A program made the translations under genes and the position numbers. A DNA stretch of 64,000 bases from Afipia clevelandensis ATCC 49720 (lineage in GTDB: Bacteria; Pseudomonadota; Alphaproteobacteria; Rhizobiales; Xanthobacteraceae): positions 3,150,926 through 3,214,925 of the forward strand of contig NZ_KB375281.1 in assembly GCF_000336555.1 (NCBI RefSeq), read 5' to 3'. The notes beneath the pieces are model-generated. The model saw only the letters and a list, made by a program, of their open reading frames with translations, was not told where the DNA came from and did no database searches. Of this stretch, positions 6,427 through 24,952 are shown piece after piece. Within the stretch, counting starts at the first letter, position 1, and every line of letters begins with the position of its first letter.

Positions 6427-6799
6427 GTCGCATTCACTTTCTGATCGGTACTGCACGCCACCCGCGCGGCTTCCCCGATGAACAGCGTTATACGGGCGAT
6501 CGCAGCTCACATGTAGGCACGAAATCCGATCCAGCCAACATCGCACGATGCCGCGCCCCGGGCAGCCCAAAAGACCGAATTTGGGCTTCTATGGCGCCGA
6601 TTTAGCGCGATTCTACCCGATCCGGCGGTCGCGGCCAACCGAAAGGCGGCAGAATGGGCCTATCGTCCTTGTCGAATGAGGCAAGGCTATGATAGCCACT
6701 CGCCCCGACAAGGGCCTTGCCTCCAAAGACGCTTCGCAGGCAGTTCCCGCCGGATGGCTTCCGCGGCAATCCGTAATTTCCCATTCTCGGAGCACACTC
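6427..6799. other. Divergent intergenic region between Tim44-like gene and secB
   Basis: This 373-bp stretch must hold the promoters of both divergent genes. I see no supported coding region. From memory, an fxsA-like gene commonly lies here between Tim44-like and secB in related alphaproteobacteria; no FxsA-like translation is visible in this stretch. No clear terminator or operator is visible. Confidence 0.55.
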
Positions 6800-7282
6800 A
6801 TGACCAACGGCAACGGCGCACCTCTTGAGAATGCGGCTCCGCCCCAGTTCAATGTCCTCGCGCAGTACATCAAGGATTTCTCGTTCGAGAATCCGAACTC
6901 CCCGGCGTCGCTGGCCGCGCAGGAGCAGCAGCCCACCATCAACATCCAGATCAATGTGTCCGCGACCGCGGTTGCCGAACACGACTATGAAGTCTCGCTG
7001 TCCATCGAGGGCAAGGCCGAAAACGAGAATTTCACGCTGTTCGGCTTTGAGCTGATCTATGCGGGCGTGTTCCGCATCCAGAACGTGCCGCAGGAGAGCA
7101 TGCATCCGTTCGTCATGATCGAGTGCCCGCGCCTGCTGTTCCCGTTCGCACGCGAAATCGTGGCCTCCTCGGTACGCGCCGGCGGATTCCCGCCGCTGAT
7201 GCTCGATCCGGTGGATTTCGTCGGTCTCTATCGCCAGAACATGGCGCGCCAGGCCGAACAGCAGCAGGGCAAGCCGAGCTAA
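6800..7282 (+). CDS. secB: Protein-export chaperone SecB
   Basis: Cytosolic tetrameric chaperone that keeps preproteins unfolded and passes them to SecA. The 160-residue product has the expected pattern: [90 protein letters not shown]. The frame is open upstream to 6689, but the family start [18 protein letters not shown] fits the ATG at 6800. The acidic C-terminal SecA-contact tail is replaced by a Gln/Lys tail ([10 protein letters not shown]). It stands alone on the plus strand, divergent from Tim44-like/mltA and convergent with dnaQ. Its position beside dnaQ-coaE-maf is the classic alphaproteobacterial origin-flanking order. Confidence 0.97.
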
Positions 7283-8671: not shown

Positions 8672-9280
8672 TTATACGGCCAGCAGATTCCGGCTGCGCA
8701 GAAAATCAAACAGCGGCAGCAGCGGCAACCCCAGAATCGTGAAGTGGTCGCCCTCGATGCGTGCGAACAGGTGCACGCCGGTGCGCTCGAGCTGGTAGGC
8801 GCCGACGCTGGAGAGCACAGCGTCACCGGCTTCCGCCAGATAGGCCGTTATCTCGGCGTCTGTGAGAGGCCGCATGGTCATCCGCGCCACGCTGACATCG
8901 CAGAACAGCACTGTTCCATCCTTCGCAACAGCGACCGCGCTTTGGAGCGCGTGCATCTGGCCGGAGAGTGTCCTGATCTGGGCGGCGGCGGCGGCGCGAT
9001 CTGTGGGCTTGCTGAAAAGCCGCTCGCCAAGTGCGAGCGTCTGATCCGCGCCAACGACATAACGGCCGGGATTCTTCACCGAGATGAACTTCGCTTTCTC
9101 CGCGGCAAGCAGTGCTGCGATCTTTCCGGGATCGGCCAGACCCGAGTCTTGCTGAATTCCGCGTTCGTCGATGTCCGCAGGCATGGTCTCAACCGCAATT
9201 CCCGCATTCACCAGCAGACTCTTTCGCACAGCGCTTTGCGACGCGAGAATCAGAGGCTGCCGCTCACGCCAGATGGTCAC
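8672..9280 (-). CDS. maf: Maf/Ham1-family nucleoside triphosphate pyrophosphatase
   Basis: Hydrolyses non-canonical or modified nucleoside triphosphates (dTTP/UTP or m7GTP classes) to monophosphates and is linked to septum inhibition in some bacteria. The 202-residue protein starts with the Maf P-loop-like signature [19 protein letters not shown]. It also has [26 protein letters not shown] and the [13 protein letters not shown] and [12 protein letters not shown] segments. Which substrate class it prefers cannot be decided safely by eye. Its ATG overlaps the ppsR stop (ATGA), indicating coupled translation, and coaE follows 14 bp downstream. Confidence 0.93.
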
Positions 9281-10116
9281 GACTGCGATGCTTTCTGGCG
9301 CTGGCGATCCGCATACAGCTTCATGATGGCCGCGGCAGTTTCTTCAATCGAGCGGCGCGTGACATCCAGCAGTGCCCAGTCGAACTTCGCACTGAGCTTA
9401 CGCGCGAAGGCGACTTCCTCGGTGACGGACTGACGGTCGATGTAGGTGTCTTCACCGGTCTTGCCGATGCCAAGCAAGCGATTCTGCCTCACCTGAATGA
9501 GACGTTCCGGCGTCGCATGAAGGCTGACCACCAGCGGCTTCTTCAATGTTTCAAGCTGATGCGGAATCGGAATTCCCGGCACCAGCGGCACGTTGGCCGT
9601 GCGCACGCCGCGATTGGCGAGATAGATCGAGGTCGGCGTTTTCGAGGTGCGCGAGACACCGACAAGAACCACGTCGGCCTCCTCGAGGCCTTCCACATGC
9701 TGACCGTCGTCATGCATCATGGTGTAGTTCAGCGCGTCGATACGCTTGAAGTATTCGGCATTGAGGGTGTGCTGCGCGCCGACCCGCGGCGAGGTCTCCC
9801 GCCCGAGATAGGCGCGAAACAGCTCCATCACAGGACCGATGATCGAGAGGCTTGGAATGTTAATTTCCCGGCACTTCGCTTCGAGCCGCTCCACGAGATC
9901 CTTCTCAAGCAGCGTGAACAGCACAATGCCCGGCGTCTCCTCGATTTCCGCAAGAACGCGGTCGAGTTGTTTCTGGCTGCGGACCAGCGGATAGACATGC
10001 TCCACCGGCGACACATTGGAATACTGCGCGGCCACCGCGCGCGCCACCGTGATCAGCGTCTCACCCGTCGAATCGGAAATCATATGCAGATGAAAGTAGC
10101 TGCCGGAGGTAGGCAT
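9277..10116 (-). CDS. ppsR: Pyruvate, phosphate dikinase regulatory protein (DUF299, ADP-dependent kinase/phosphorylase)
   Basis: Bifunctional regulator that inactivates PPDK or PEP synthase by ADP-dependent phosphorylation and reactivates it by Pi-dependent dephosphorylation. The 279-residue protein has the family signatures [11 protein letters not shown] near the N-terminus, the P-loop GVSRTSKT (153-160) and the downstream [20 protein letters not shown] and [14 protein letters not shown]. It corresponds to the origin-linked gene called RP001 in Rickettsia prowazekii. It is the first gene of ppsR-maf-coaE-dnaQ and is transcribed away from the gene-free stretch proposed as oriC; two GANTC methylation sites lie within 15 bp upstream of its start codon. 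Confidence 0.95.
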
Positions 10117-10230
10117 GGTGATTCGAATCCGTTTCCGCTTAATCCGGCGGCTGTGAAAAGCTGTGAGTCCCTGTGGGCATCGTCACCTCAATCCGGCGGC
10201 GAACAGACCCCCTTGGGATAACCGGCTCTT

Positions 10231-10239
10231 TCATTCACA
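10231..10239. promoter_or_regulatory. DnaA-box-like 9-mer
   Basis: TCATTCACA differs by one base from the consensus TTATNCACA. The plus strand shows the TCATTCACA orientation. It shares its only deviation with the site at 10401-10409. Confidence 0.5.
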
Positions 10240-10400
10240 GCACTGATTTCGGGATGAACATCTGGCTTTCGGCAGAATGGTAGCGGGGTTGTGTGGATTT
10301 GTCTCGGGATAATCCCGCATCTCGGCGCTCAAGCACTTGAACCATCGGCCAATTCCTTGCCGCAGGCGAACGATCCAACAGCGGGCATAAAACCGCCGGG

Positions 10401-10409
10401 TGTGGATGA
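10401..10409. promoter_or_regulatory. DnaA-box-like 9-mer, opposite orientation
   Basis: TGTGGATGA is the reverse complement of TCATCCACA, one mismatch from TTATNCACA. It lies about 50 bp left of the AT-rich block. A weaker two-mismatch site, TGTGGATTT, is at 10292-10300. Confidence 0.5.
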
Positions 10410-10457
10410 GTGCTGGACAAGATCGGGAGAGCGATGCGCGAACGCTAATCACGGTTA

Positions 10458-10500
10458 CACTTAATCAAACCAAGAATCTAAAAAGGATTTTTTAAGAAAG
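10458..10500. other. AT-rich block, possible DNA-unwinding element
   Basis: A run of about 43 bp with several A and T tracts (TTAATCAAACC, then CTAAAAAGGATTTTTTAAGA) is far richer in A+T than the surrounding GC-rich DNA. It includes one GANTC site at 10474-10478. The location beside DnaA-like boxes is what an origin unwinding element would look like. Confidence 0.5.
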
Positions 10501-10656
10501 TCGTGCTTGCGGACAAACCTGTTCTCACGTCATCTACCGATGCTGATCAACACATCGAGCCGTGTCCGGTTCCTGCTATCAGGCGACAATCACCAGCTTT
10601 GAAACATCGAAGGCTTCGCAGCTAAAGAGCTTGGCAATTAAGGTTTGCGATTTCCA

Positions 10657-11079
10657 ATGTACGAATGGATCAAGGCACTGCATGTGATCGCGGTCATCTC
10701 CTGGATGGCCGGCATGCTCTATCTGCCGCGGCTGTTCGTCTATCACTGTGACGCGGAGATCGGCTCAAAGCAGTCCGAGACGTTCAAGGTGATGGAGCGC
10801 CGCCTGCTCAAGGCGATTATCAATCCTGCCATGGCGGTGACCTGGCTGGCCGGTTTGTGGCTCGCCTGGCAGGGCGGCTGGTACGTTTCGGGCTGGTTTC
10901 ACGCCAAATTCCTGCTGGTGCTGATCCTGTCGGGCGTCCATGGCTTTTTCAGCGCGCGGGTACGGGATTTCGCCAATGATGCGAACACCAGAAGCCAAAA
11001 ATTCTATCGCATTATCAATGAAGTACCGACGATTCTGATGATCGGGATCGTCATTCTGGTGATTGTGAAGCCGTTTTAG
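10657..11079 (+). CDS. hemJ: Protoporphyrinogen IX oxidase HemJ
   Basis: Oxidises protoporphyrinogen IX to protoporphyrin IX in heme synthesis; HemJ is the oxygen-independent-looking membrane enzyme used by most alphaproteobacteria. The 140-residue protein has four hydrophobic segments. The start MYEWIKALHVIAVISWMAGM with conserved His and Trp, then YLPRLFVYH, is the HemJ signature and includes the putative heme-ligating His. The ATG at 10657 matches the family; an in-frame TTG at 10645 would add four residues and lacks a well-placed ribosome site. It is the first plus-strand gene to the right of the candidate origin, and rho follows after 267 bp. Confidence 0.93.
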   Translation: MYEWIKALHVIAVISWMAGMLYLPRLFVYHCDAEIGSKQSETFKVMERRLLKAIINPAMAVTWLAGLWLAWQGGWYVSGWFHAKFLLVLILSGVHGFFSARVRDFANDANTRSQKFYRIINEVPTILMIGIVILVIVKPF

Positions 11080-11346
11080 GTCCAAAACGCTGCGATCTCG
11101 CGACAATCGCCTCCTTGCGTGAGACCAGACGATTTTCTATATTCGCGGCATCCCACCCAACGCAGGCGGATGTGGTTGAGTCCCGGTCTCACTGTTGGAC
11201 CGGCCGCCACTTCAGGTTCGAAGCCTCCCGGCACCTTTCTCGCTCAAGACCTGCGGACTTTCGATCGTACCTTTAGTCCGTATGTCGTCAGCAGACTGAA
11301 CCCTCCCCTCCCCTTTCTCCCTTACTTGCTCCACAGGACAACCCCG

Positions 11347-12612
11347 ATGCGGGAAATCAAACTACAAGACCTCAAATCCAAAACTCCGGCGGAGCTTGTC
11401 TCCTTCGCGGAAGAGAACGGGGTCGAAAACGCCAGCACCATGCGCAAGCAGGAGCTGATGTTCGCCATTCTCAAGCAGCTTGCGATCGCGGAAACCGACA
11501 TCATCGGCGAAGGCGTCGTCGAGGTTCTCTCCGATGGCTTCGGCTTCCTGCGCTCGTGGGACGCGAACTATCTGCCAGGGCCCGATGACATTTATGTTTC
11601 GCCTTCGCAGATCCGCCGCTTCGGATTGCGCACCGGCGACACTATCGAAGGTCATATTCGTAGCCCGAAGGAAGGCGAGCGCTACTTCGCCCTACTCAAG
11701 GTCAACACGCTGAATTTCGAGGACCCTGAAAAGTCCAAGCACAAGGTCAATTTCGACAACCTGACGCCGCTGTTTCCCGACGAGCGGTTCAAGCTCGAGA
11801 TCGACGATCCGACCCGCAAGGATTTGTCGCCGCGCGTCATCGACATCGTAGCCCCTATCGGCAAAGGCCAGCGCGCGTTGATCGTCGCGCCGCCGCGCAC
11901 GGGTAAAACCGTGCTGATGCAGAACATCGCCCATTCGATCACGGCCAATCATCCGGAATGCTATCTGATCGTTCTTCTGATCGACGAACGTCCGGAAGAA
12001 GTCACCGACATGCAGCGTTCGGTGAAGGGTGAAGTTGTGTCTTCAACCTTCGACGAACCCGCGGTGCGTCACGTTCAGGTCGCCGAGATGGTGATCGAGA
12101 AGGCCAAGCGTCTGGTCGAACATGGACGCGATGTTGTGATCCTGCTCGATTCGATCACGCGACTTGGCCGCGCCTACAACACCGTCGTGCCGTCATCCGG
12201 CAAGGTGCTGACCGGTGGTGTCGATGCGAACGCCCTGCAGCGTCCGAAGCGTTTCTTCGGCGCCGCGCGCAACATCGAAGAGGGCGGATCGCTGACCATC
12301 ATCGCAACGGCTCTGGTCGATACCGGCAGCCGCATGGATGAAGTGATCTTTGAAGAGTTCAAGGGCACCGGTAACTCCGAACTCATTCTCGACCGCAAGG
12401 TCGCCGACAAACGCACCTTCCCCGCCATCGACATCGCGCGCTCCGGCACGCGCAAGGAAGAGCTCATCACCGATCCGCAGTTGCTCAAGAAGATGTACGT
12501 GCTGCGCCGGATCCTCAATCCGATGGGCTCGATGGATGCGATCGAGTTCCTGCTCGACAAGCTCCGCAACACCAAGAACAACGCCGAGTTCTTCGATTCG
12601 ATGAACACCTGA
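11347..12612 (+). CDS. rho: Transcription termination factor Rho
   Basis: Hexameric RNA-dependent ATPase that terminates transcription. The 421-residue protein has the N-terminal helical and cold-shock-like RNA-binding domain ([24 protein letters not shown] at 64-70, [16 protein letters not shown]). It is followed by the RecA-type ATPase with Walker A APPRTGKT (181-188), the Walker B region [11 protein letters not shown] and the R-loop/Q-loop segment [23 protein letters not shown]. The frame is open upstream to 11119, but homology starts at the ATG at 11347. A 267-bp leader precedes it, long enough for the autogenous control known in other bacteria, though I see no definite attenuator. An intrinsic terminator follows. 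Confidence 0.98.
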
Positions 12613-12646
12613 TCTGATCGCCAGATATTCGCGAATCAGCCTTTCA

Positions 12647-12673
12647 ATGCCCGGCCTTCGTGCCGGGCATTTT
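12647..12673 (+). terminator. Intrinsic terminator after rho
   Basis: ATGCCCGGC at 12647-12655 pairs with GCCGGGCAT at 12662-12670 around a six-base loop, followed by a short T run. It stands about 35 bp after the rho stop. Confidence 0.85.
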
Positions 12674-12826
12674 GCTGGGATCAGCGATCAGAAATTGTGC
12701 GCCGCAACATATGTAATATTGCGGGAGTGGCGCAGTATATTGCGATGCAACAACAGCGGATTTTCTGCGGGCAAAGGCAAAGCGGGATTTTCATTGCCTG
12801 CTTTTGCGGTGTTCGCCAAATAGGCG

Positions 12827-14161
12827 ATGCAGTCCTCTGATCAGACCATCTTCGCCCTGTCGTCCGGCCGCGCGCCGTCAGCTATTGCCATTCTTCGCGT
12901 GTCGGGCCCGCAGGCCCGCATGGCTGTCGAGCGGCTGTGCGGAAAACTGCCCTCGCCTCGTTTTGCCCGGTTCACGACGCTCCGTGATCTCGACGGCAGC
13001 GCCATCGACGAATCGGTGACCCTCTGGTTTCCCGGACCGCACAGCGCCACCGGCGAGGACGTCGCCGAATTTCATGTTCATGGCGGACGCGCGGTGATCG
13101 CCGCGATGTTCGATGCGCTCGGCGCAATCGACGGTCTGCGTCCGGCGGAGCCGGGTGAATTCACGCGACGCGCGTTCGAGAACGGCAAGCTCGATCTCAC
13201 CGAAGCCGAAGGGCTCGACGATTTGATTCATGCCGATACGGATCGTCAGCGCCGTCAGGCATTACGGCATCTGAAAGGATTGCTCGGTGCAAAGGCTGAG
13301 ACATGGCGACAACAGATTATCGAAGCGTCTGCGTTGATCGAAGCGGGAATTGATTTCTCCGATGAAGGCGACGTGTCTGAAGAGCTGATCGCACCTGCAT
13401 TGAAAAAGATCGCGGCGCTGAAATCTGAAATCGAAGAAACCCTTTATTTATCGGCGCAAAGTGAACGCCTGCGCGAAGGTCTCACCGTTGCCATCGCCGG
13501 ACCGCCGAATGCCGGCAAGTCGACGCTGCTCAATCGTCTTGCGCGGCGTGAAGCGGCGATCGTGTCGCCGCATGCCGGCACGACACGCGATGTCATCGAA
13601 GTGCATCTTGATCTCGATGGTTATCCGGTGACGGTGATAGACACCGCAGGCGTGCGCGAGACCCATGATCCGGTCGAACAGGAAGGCGTGCGCCGCGCGC
13701 GCGACCGTGCGCGCACATCGGATCTTGTCCTTTGGCTTGTCGATGCAAGTGACAGAGGCGCGACGTTGCCGGAAAATGAAGACGATCACGCGCCGGTCTG
13801 GATTGTGCGCAACAAGGTCGATCTGGCCGGTGATGGGAATGCAAACGCGGCGAGGGCGCAGTTCGATATTTCCGCGTCGCGCGGCGACGGCGTCTCTGAG
13901 CTGATGGCCGCCCTGGTGTCCTACGCCCAGGACTATTTCGGGTCCGGGGAAATGGCGCTGGTGAGCCGGGCGCGGCACCGGACGTTGTTGCGGGAGACGG
14001 TCGAAGCTCTGGACCGGGCAGGGCGCTCGGCCGACAAGGGCGATGAACTGTTGGCCGAAGAGCTACGAATCGCGATTCATTCATTGGGCCGCCTGACGGG
14101 GCGAGTCGACGTCGAGGACATCCTCGATGTGATATTTCGCGAGTTCTGCATCGGGAAGTAG
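12827..14161 (+). CDS. mnmE: tRNA uridine-5-carboxymethylaminomethyl modification GTPase MnmE
   Basis: GTPase that with MnmG installs the cmnm5 or nm5 group on U34 of certain tRNAs. The 444-residue protein has the N-terminal tetrahydrofolate-binding domain ([21 protein letters not shown]), a helical domain, and an inserted G domain with G1 GPPNAGKS (225-232), G2 GTTRD (251-255), G3 DTAG and G4 NKVD. It ends with the conserved FCIGK motif whose Cys is needed for modification. Codons around 13240-13480 are somewhat richer in AT than the rest. Its partner mnmG is next, separated by a gap that carries three parS sites. Confidence 0.97.
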
Positions 14162-14201
14162 GCCTCTGGCCGACTGTTGGTTCCAGATCGGCCATTGGCC
14201 C

Positions 14202-14217
14202 TGTTTCACGTGAAACG
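14202..14217. promoter_or_regulatory. parS: parS centromere site 1
   Basis: TGTTTCACGTGAAACG matches the 16-bp universal ParB-binding palindrome TGTTTCACGTGAAACA at 15 of 16 positions. It lies in the mnmE-mnmG gap, upstream of parAB. Confidence 0.93.
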
Positions 14218-14229
14218 AGTTTTCTGCGT

Positions 14230-14245
14230 TGTTTCACGTGAAACA
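14230..14245. promoter_or_regulatory. parS: parS centromere site 2
   Basis: A perfect TGTTTCACGTGAAACA palindrome, 12 bp after site 1. ParB loads here as a CTP-dependent clamp. Confidence 0.96.
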
Positions 14246-14265
14246 GCTTCCCAAGATCGCCTCTG

Positions 14266-14281
14266 TGTTTCACGTGAAACA
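14266..14281. promoter_or_regulatory. parS: parS centromere site 3
   Basis: A perfect TGTTTCACGTGAAACA palindrome, 20 bp after site 2 and 55 bp before the mnmG start codon, so bound ParB could also affect mnmG transcription. Confidence 0.96.
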
Positions 14282-14336
14282 GGTCTGAGCGATTTCCGTC
14301 TTTCAGCTTTCGCACCAAAGCGATAGAAGTGCGGCC

Positions 14337-16204: not shown

Positions 16205-16861
16205 ATGGCCAAGCCAGCTCCGGTTTCCATCTCCGCTTTCGACAAGGCGGCTGCGCTGAAGCTCACTCCTGTTTCACGTGAAACAGAGGCCCGGCTGGAT
16301 CGCTACGTGGATTTGCTCGTAGCGTGGCAGGCCAAGACCAATCTGATCGCGCCCTCGACCCTGCCGCAGCTCTGGACCCGGCATATTTCCGATTCGCTGC
16401 AGCTTCTGGATCTCGCGCCCAACGCCCGGCGGTGGCTCGACTTCGGCAGCGGGGGCGGATTTCCCGGCGTGGTGCTGGCCTGCGCCATGGCGGAGCATCC
16501 GGGGGCGAGCGTTCAGCTTGTGGAGCGGATCGCCAAGAAGGCCGCGTTCCTGCGCGAGGCTCTGCGCGTGACCGGCGCGCTGGGCTCCGTTGTCCTCGCT
16601 GACATCGGGGATTATGTGGATAGCCTGTCAGAGCCGGTCGATTGCGTCACAGCGCGTGCGGTCGCTCCTCTACATATGTTGCTGGGTTTCGCGGCGCCTC
16701 TGGTGCAGCGGGGCGCCAAAGCCTTGTTCCTGAAGGGACAAGATGTAGAGGCTGAATTGACGGAAGCTACTAAATACTGGAATATAGAGCCTCTTCTTCA
16801 TCCCAGCCGCACCGGCGGACACGGCTGGATCGTCGAACTCAATAAAATTGAGCGGCGATAA
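16205..16861 (+). CDS. rsmG: 16S rRNA (guanine-527-N7)-methyltransferase RsmG (GidB)
   Basis: Methylates N7 of G527 in 16S rRNA using S-adenosylmethionine; loss gives low-level streptomycin resistance. The 218-residue protein has the signature TEARLDRYVDLLVAWQAKTN, the SAM site WLDFGSGGGFPGVVLACA and the catalytic-region segment VTARAVAPLHMLLGFAAPL. A perfect parS site lies inside the reading frame at 16270-16285 and is translated as PVSRET, so codon choice there is constrained by ParB binding. It follows mnmG by 2 bp; parA begins within or just after its end. Confidence 0.97.
   Translation: MAKPAPVSISAFDKAAALKLTPVSRETEARLDRYVDLLVAWQAKTNLIAPSTLPQLWTRHISDSLQLLDLAPNARRWLDFGSGGGFPGVVLACAMAEHPGASVQLVERIAKKAAFLREALRVTGALGSVVLADIGDYVDSLSEPVDCVTARAVAPLHMLLGFAAPLVQRGAKALFLKGQDVEAELTEATKYWNIEPLLHPSRTGGHGWIVELNKIERR
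16270..16285. promoter_or_regulatory. parS: parS centromere site 4, inside rsmG
   Basis: A perfect TGTTTCACGTGAAACA palindrome inside the rsmG coding sequence, about 2 kb right of sites 1-3 and 0.6 kb before parA. Intragenic parS sites in this gene family are known in several bacteria. Confidence 0.96.
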
Positions 16862-24921: not shown

Positions 24922-24952
24922 TGGTATTCCCTTGCCCCACGCCAATCCTACG

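Follow-up and report, generated by a model that had tools for sequence, protein, structure and literature searches.

The window analyzed here, a stretch of 64 kb, comprises bases 3,150,926–3,214,925 of the single 4,399,548-bp contig that makes up this Afipia genome (Nitrobacteraceae, Hyphomicrobiales). Its ppsR and hemJ genes are separated by 540 bp, a length that proved exact, with ppsR starting at 10116 on the minus strand and hemJ probably at the ATG at 10657 (Table 1). An earlier note, made from the sequence alone, had taken this gap for a candidate chromosomal oriC between the two halves of an alphaproteobacterial origin neighborhood. Pfam and NCBIfam matches support the synteny it drew on, with dnaQ, coaE, maf and ppsR on the left and hemJ, rho, mnmE, mnmG, rsmG, parA and parB on the right. 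Its description of transcription as diverging on both sides holds for ppsR (minus) and hemJ (plus), but secB, though present, lies on the plus strand (6689–7282), so that not every gene on the left diverges from the gap.

Table 1. Features of the putative origin region and of the neighboring parS sites, in window coordinates.
Feature	Position	Strand	Basis or remark
ppsR (DUF299/COG1806 kinase/pyrophosphorylase), left flank	9277..10116	-	Pfam/NCBIfam
ppsR-hemJ gap, proposed chromosomal oriC	10117..10656	.	skew, parS, box enrichment
Likely oriC core: DnaA-box region and unwinding element	10148..10515	.	conserved islands stop near 10515
Three TGTG (DnaA-box 3' core), weak boxes	10152, 10162, 10172; within 10152..10180	-	exactly 10 bp apart
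TTATCCCAA, DnaA-box-like, 2 mismatches	10213..10221	-	box scan
Predicted DnaA box TCATTCACA	10231..10239	+	ATTCACAG common to 62/77 gaps
DnaA-box-like pair AAATCCACA (10292-10300) and TTATCCCGA (10304-10312)	10292..10312	-	conserved block TGTGTGGATTTGTCTYGGGATAA
Predicted DnaA box TCATCCACA, 1 mismatch	10401..10409	-	box scan
Degenerate box CTAATCACG, directly left of unwinding element	10445..10453	+	relatives often AATCCAC or ATTCAC
Predicted AT-rich DNA unwinding element	10455..10499	.	least stable 40/60-bp stretches of window
AGAATCT (AGANTCT palindrome, GANTC CcrM-type site)	10473..10479	.	within unwinding element
hemJ, right flank	10657..11079	+	Pfam/NCBIfam; hemE missing between gap and hemJ
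Three parS palindromes in mnmE-mnmG gap (predicted ParB centromere)	14202 (one mismatch), 14230, 14266; 14202..14281	.	
Fourth parS, inside rsmG	16270..16285	.	genome scan

Comparisons were made at three distances. The near set started from 81 sequences, the window and 80 named loci, the named nearest relatives being Afipia, Bradyrhizobium, Tardiphaga and Rhodopseudomonas. Three loci without hemJ were dropped, together with one locus (L118) whose gap of 1417 bp fell outside our filter of 80–900 bp, leaving 77 ppsR-hemJ gaps; these sequences are related, and counts over them are not independent. From the neighboring gaps we retained 76 of 76 between hemJ and rho, 61 of 75 between rho and mnmE, and 72 of 72 between mnmE and mnmG. 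The distant set holds 20 of the 29 relatives from outside the genus with a ppsR match (G033 and G035 were compared separately and seven were left out); three further relatives from outside the genus had no such match. The class set consists of 40 genomes, one per family and mostly the better matches among the 133 of 192 genomes that match ppsR, the other 59 having no such match. Four of the 40, in which hemE does not adjoin the gap, were counted apart.

The earlier note had listed two DnaA-box-like 9-mers with one mismatch and a weaker third. The box at 10401 is indeed one mismatch from TTATCCACA, whereas the box at 10231 is that close only to TTATNCACA and differs from TTATCCACA at two positions; the weaker box at 10292 (AAATCCACA, minus strand) has two mismatches. 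An exact TTATCCACA is absent from the 64-kb window. Two boxes with at most one mismatch within 250 bp are by themselves not unusual, there being five such pairs in 537 kb of the genome. In the set of 77 ppsR-hemJ gaps, NNATYCACA averages 1.95 copies per gap and dinucleotide-shuffled sequences 0.16; for the shorter TYCACA the figures are 4.44 and 0.49. Box cores are thus about tenfold over shuffles, in contrast to the three neighboring gaps, where NNATYCACA stays at expectation (hemJ-rho, 76 gaps, 0.03 vs. 0.04; rho-mnmE, 61 gaps, 0.02 vs. 0.04; mnmE-mnmG, 72 gaps, 0.06 vs. 0.05). Matches to TTATCCACA with up to one mismatch are rare in the near set, at 0.27 per gap compared to 0.08 after shuffling.

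Individual boxes recur as well. The TGTG elements in 10152..10180 are conserved among relatives, and AAATCCAC from the paired block at 10292..10312 is present in 61 of the 77 gaps. Nearly every near gap (76 of 77, compared to 8.8 after shuffling) has a loose box (WATYMAM or WATCAC) at most 75 nt to the left of its last AGANTCY, and so have 9 of the 17 gaps of the distant set (2.6 after shuffling). Within the genome itself, a step-1 scan of 882 kb (20% of the total) yielded two 540-bp loci with at least four TYCACA. One is the ppsR-hemJ gap; the other, near 3.50 Mb, is GC-rich and apparently coding, as it falls within an open frame of 434 codons. In 537 kb scanned at a step of 20, only the ppsR-hemJ gap reaches this density. 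As expected of an oriC, the gap therefore holds a cluster of DnaA boxes that is above chance and conserved, although its boxes are non-canonical. Boxes resembling TTATCCACA are present in 31 of the 36 hemE-flanked gaps of other families (75 sites vs. 2.5 shuffled), where strict boxes are common, and the clade of the window seems, by this comparison, to have drifted to weak ones. Domain IV of the host DnaA matches the structure of E. coli domain IV (1j1v, 1.5e-25), and RPRQ, SLPEIG and FGGRDHTTVLHA are identical in the two proteins.

The AT-rich block described earlier contains the least stable stretches of the entire window at 40 steps (10460) and at 60 steps (10445); at 80 steps one other site, at 24943, is less stable. 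The stability computation thus places an AT-rich unwinding element beside the boxes, as in an oriC. From the start of the least stable 40 bp to the right-hand gene, the median distance is 51 bp in the distant set, where this gene is mostly hemE, and 163 bp in the near set. GANTC, of which three sites had been reported in the gap, occurs four times (10120, 10125, 10165, 10474). Nearly all near gaps (76 of 77; 7.6 after shuffling) contain the extended palindrome AGANTCT, as do 17 of 20 distant, order-level gaps (1.2), compared to 1 of 19 hemJ-rho control gaps (0.9). At class level it is found in 11 of 36 gaps (1.9), less often than within the order, which makes it chiefly an order feature and a testable conserved part of what we take to be the origins of the order.

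In E. coli, AGATCT sits in the unwinding region and contains a Dam site. The likeness would thus lie in a palindrome holding the local adenine-methylation site, AGATCT there and AGANTCT here. AGATCT has been named as an ATP-DnaA box (PMC10225481); the two systems differ in that E. coli oriC has GATC (Dam) and the gap GANTC (CcrM type). It is conceivable, but in our view doubtful, that AGANTCT is an order-wide origin part through which CcrM methylation would act as a switch on melting and limit re-initiation, and would thereby correspond to AGATCT with its Dam site. The genome does encode a CcrM-type RAMA domain, which was also detected in 55 of the 60 relatives sampled. However, in a small set that includes drafts, AGANTCT occurred in 25 of 51 genomes in which a RAMA domain was detected and in 3 of 5 in which none was; being as frequent without the domain as with it, the palindrome gains no support for a methylation role from this comparison.

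In the near set, DnaA-trios (CTA repeats, 3'-GAT-5', beside a box) are no commoner on the strand where they would be expected than in shuffled sequences (5 sites vs. 5.9); the other strand has 14. DnaA-trio-like CTA repeats amounted to 3 vs. 0.7 shuffled in the 20 distant gaps and 18 vs. 2.7 in the 36 gaps of other families. The latter also contain a DnaA-trio-like element, CTAC.AC, with 20 sites on one strand and 2 on the other (shuffled 1.9); CTAC-rich repeats are scarce in the clade of the window (5 sites vs. 2.9).

Of the 20 distant relatives, 6 of which belong to the family of the present genome, 19 have hemE placed between ppsR and hemJ and a ppsR-hemE gap of 342–547 bp, and hemE is the right neighbor of the gap in 36 of the 40 other families (median gap 404.5 bp). 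The hemE of the present genome is located at 166,723, beside hemC and 1.4 Mb from the gap. A single near relative, Bradyrhizobium sp. U87765 (the L118 locus mentioned above), has kept hemE between ppsR and hemJ, the only hemE match among the 81 near sequences, and its gene order is the ancestral one. In the near set, the last 120–140 bp of the gap before hemJ show no conservation. Since hemE is in place in the distant relatives and absent here, and since this end of the gap is not conserved, the alignments suggest that the origin stayed beside ppsR and the adjoining hemE left. The oriC core is likely to comprise about 10150–10515, the left two thirds of the 540-bp gap, the rest being non-conserved DNA before hemJ.

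The origin of Caulobacter crescentus, Cori, is situated between hemE and the COG1806/ppsR gene and has an AT-rich element (PMC1914354); its DnaA boxes are described as weak and non-canonical (PMC4468827). The gap of the window adjoins the same ppsR (COG1806) gene, likewise contains an AT-rich element, and has weak, non-canonical boxes of this kind, but unlike Cori it has hemE gone from its right side. Of two other Cori features, the CtrA site TTAA-N7-TTAA is absent from 9900–10800 at up to one mismatch, and the IHF consensus WATCAANNNNTTR has no match in the gap at the same threshold. In Hyphomonas, marker frequency is reported to peak near hemE (PMC6650430).

The diverging starts of ppsR and hemJ could also belong to a shared divergent promoter with DnaA-regulated sites, the true origin lying elsewhere in the same 10–20 kb. 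Promoters can carry DnaA boxes, as described for Caulobacter (PMC4468827), and the hemJ-rho gap is better conserved at the DNA level (mean 0.71, compared to 0.51) and has a small excess of TTATCCACA matches with at most one mismatch (0.13 vs. 0.04). Yet ppsR has the box array and the unwinding element beside it both where hemE is the right neighbor and where hemJ is, the three neighboring gaps have no excess of NNATYCACA, and the conservation between hemJ and rho looks like that of a promoter and a transcribed leader. We consider such a promoter without an origin extremely improbable.

To place the locus within the chromosome, we computed GC skew for 40 stretches sampled around it and for 504 contiguous kb (3,030,926–3,534,925). 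Skew is negative from about 0.99 to 3.15 Mb and positive from about 3.165 Mb round to about 0.89 Mb in the sample, so that 38 of the 40 stretches have the sign expected for an origin at the ppsR-hemJ locus and a terminus opposite. With both switch points fitted freely on a 20-kb grid, the 40-stretch sample put the origin at 3.16–3.22 Mb and the terminus at 0.90–0.98 Mb (ranges within 0.1% of the best score). Across the contiguous region, skew is negative in each of the six 20-kb stretches that precede the window and positive in each of the 16 that follow it. The two sampled stretches of the wrong sign are 2,750,001–2,760,000 and 3,410,001–3,420,000; 20-kb stretches around 3.41 Mb are weakly positive, which makes the deviation there local. 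The same flip is seen in wide samples of two relatives (G013 and G028) and locally in a third (G015).

The earlier note had asked for a skew minimum in the gap. The sign does switch at the locus in this genome sample, but the cumulative minimum over the 504 kb falls at window position 13051, 2.4 kb to the right of the gap. At a resolution of about 3 kb at best, skew alone can therefore not separate the ppsR-hemJ from the mnmE-mnmG gap. The offset is consistent: relative to the start of ppsR, the local minimum lies at +2844, +1824 and +2572 in three complete relatives. It might be explained in part by rho, which is located there and whose four-fold sites are C-biased on the coding strand (−0.13, 76 genomes), a bias that would shift the minimum to the right; since mnmG (−0.06), rsmG (−0.06) and parB (−0.09), farther to the right, are negative too, this is an argument and not a proof. 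Gene-by-gene four-fold-site skew gave no finer placing of the switch.

At the opposite end, a search of the genome for an 18-base dif core (up to three mismatches allowed) gave one match, at 1,034,049 with one mismatch, whereas a 28-base dif pattern had none. This dif-like site lies 73 kb from the antipode and would divide the chromosome into arms of roughly 2.27 and 2.13 Mb.

Two other loci were considered as origins and rejected. The dnaA gene, at 3,392,619, is about 230 kb off, and the stretch bearing it has no locus with four TYCACA. Although the sampled stretch of the wrong sign at 3.41 Mb is near dnaA, the cumulative skew over the 504 kb climbs steadily through the gene. The hemE locus, 1.4 Mb off, has no such cluster in its stretch either.

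The whole genome contains four parS sites (up to two mismatches allowed), all of them 3.5–5.6 kb from the ppsR-hemJ gap; parABS is close to Cori in Caulobacter as well. Most of these sites fall between mnmE and mnmG (14162–14336), where TGTTNCACGTGNAACA is found near parAB, as expected of parS. It is here that the published rule places the origin. According to the Ori-Finder report of 2008, TGTTTCACG is the DnaA box of Bradyrhizobiaceae, whose oriCs adjoin gidA and contain TGTTTCACGTGAAACA, a family rule given for ten genomes (PMC2275245); the genome report on Oligotropha (now Afipia) carboxidovorans OM5, to which the rule was applied, lists “4 DnaA box motifs (tgtttcacg)” (PMC3091675). Applied to the window, oriC would be the mnmE-mnmG gap, with TGTTTCACG as a Bradyrhizobiaceae-specific DnaA box clustered by gidA (mnmG). 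That gap is about as AT-rich as the one between ppsR and hemJ (GC 0.53 vs. 0.52), and the skew minimum at 13051 is closer to it, at 1.2 kb.

However, TGTTTCACGTGAAACA served as wild-type parS in a Hyphomonas ParB gel shift (PMC6650430) and falls within the parS consensus TGTTNCACGTGAAACA of a review (PMC7022226). Judged by its sequence, the Ori-Finder “DnaA box” TGTTTCACG is one half of parS. Its commonest count in the mnmE-mnmG gaps is four (33 of 72), that of full parS palindromes two (36 of 72, with none in 8 of 72), and it is absent from all 77 ppsR-hemJ gaps. Further, 48 of the 61 relatives searched contain TGTTNCACGTGNAACA, other families of the order among them, so that the pattern is not family-specific. 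The identity of parS, the distribution of TGTTTCACG and the lack of a DnaA-box excess between mnmE and mnmG lead us to read the published location as a centromere: on sequence grounds, it looks like a segregation site. A host DnaA whose domain IV resembles that of E. coli also argues against a special box, and we hold an origin between mnmE and mnmG to be very unlikely. The published assignment and the origin proposed at ppsR share a 5-kb neighborhood and a skew switch, but the former holds parS and the latter lies about 4 kb to its left. In one relative of the same family (G029), TGTTNCACGTGNAACA is present in 53 copies, compared to 0–5 in the other 60 genomes searched.

Taken together, the skew switch at the locus, the positions of the parS and dif-like sites, and a box enrichment that singles out the gap among its neighbors support the candidate oriC. 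We assign a probability of about 0.92 to the reading that its segment at about 10150–10515 is a DnaA-dependent chromosomal origin, the positional homolog of Caulobacter Cori after hemE had moved away. We prefer the ppsR-hemJ gap to its neighbors because of its box enrichment, its instability, its fixed place by ppsR across the class, the Caulobacter origin and the marker frequency in Hyphomonas. Its location, box enrichment, instability, conservation and synteny and the parS and dif-like positions come from computation; DnaA binding, melting, firing and any methylation role at the gap are what we infer.

In the process that we propose, DnaA-ATP would occupy the boxes, most of them weak, that are scattered over 10152–10453, and the DnaA oligomer would extend to the AT-rich element at 10455–10499 and melt it. 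DnaB helicases would then be loaded at the melted element, and two forks would run outward, one to either side and each in the direction in which the genes flanking the gap are transcribed. ParB would catch the newly copied parS sites 3.5–5.6 kb to the right. As the genome encodes a CcrM-type RAMA domain, GANTC in the melting element might be hemimethylated after each firing, which may help to time re-initiation.

On this reading, a large family (Afipia, Bradyrhizobium, Rhodopseudomonas, Tardiphaga) would have its origin at ppsR, and a “DnaA box” published for the entire family would be explained as half a ParB site. A shift of the origin by 4 kb would have consequences for work with ARS plasmids, for the tagging of origins and for surveys of their structure. 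The TGTTTCACG motif is also one of three by which origins were called in a study retaining 101 Rhodobacteraceae genomes (PMC6699656), and by this reuse the error may have spread. Among the open-licence matches listed in our literature searches, we noticed no correction of the TGTTTCACG rule and no paper that treats oriC, Alphaproteobacteria, DnaA and hemJ together.

A further element lies to the right of hemJ. The hemJ-rho gap (11080–11359) contains a sigma70-like promoter, CTTGCG ... TATATT, at about 11116–11144. A search of 9200–13000 against Rfam gave no match at E≤1. The rho leader that follows the promoter is well conserved in 76 sequences, with few compensatory changes, and may, from its sequence, be a candidate cis-acting RNA; its predicted helices pair 11165–11169 with 11253–11257 and 11172–11179 with 11209–11216.
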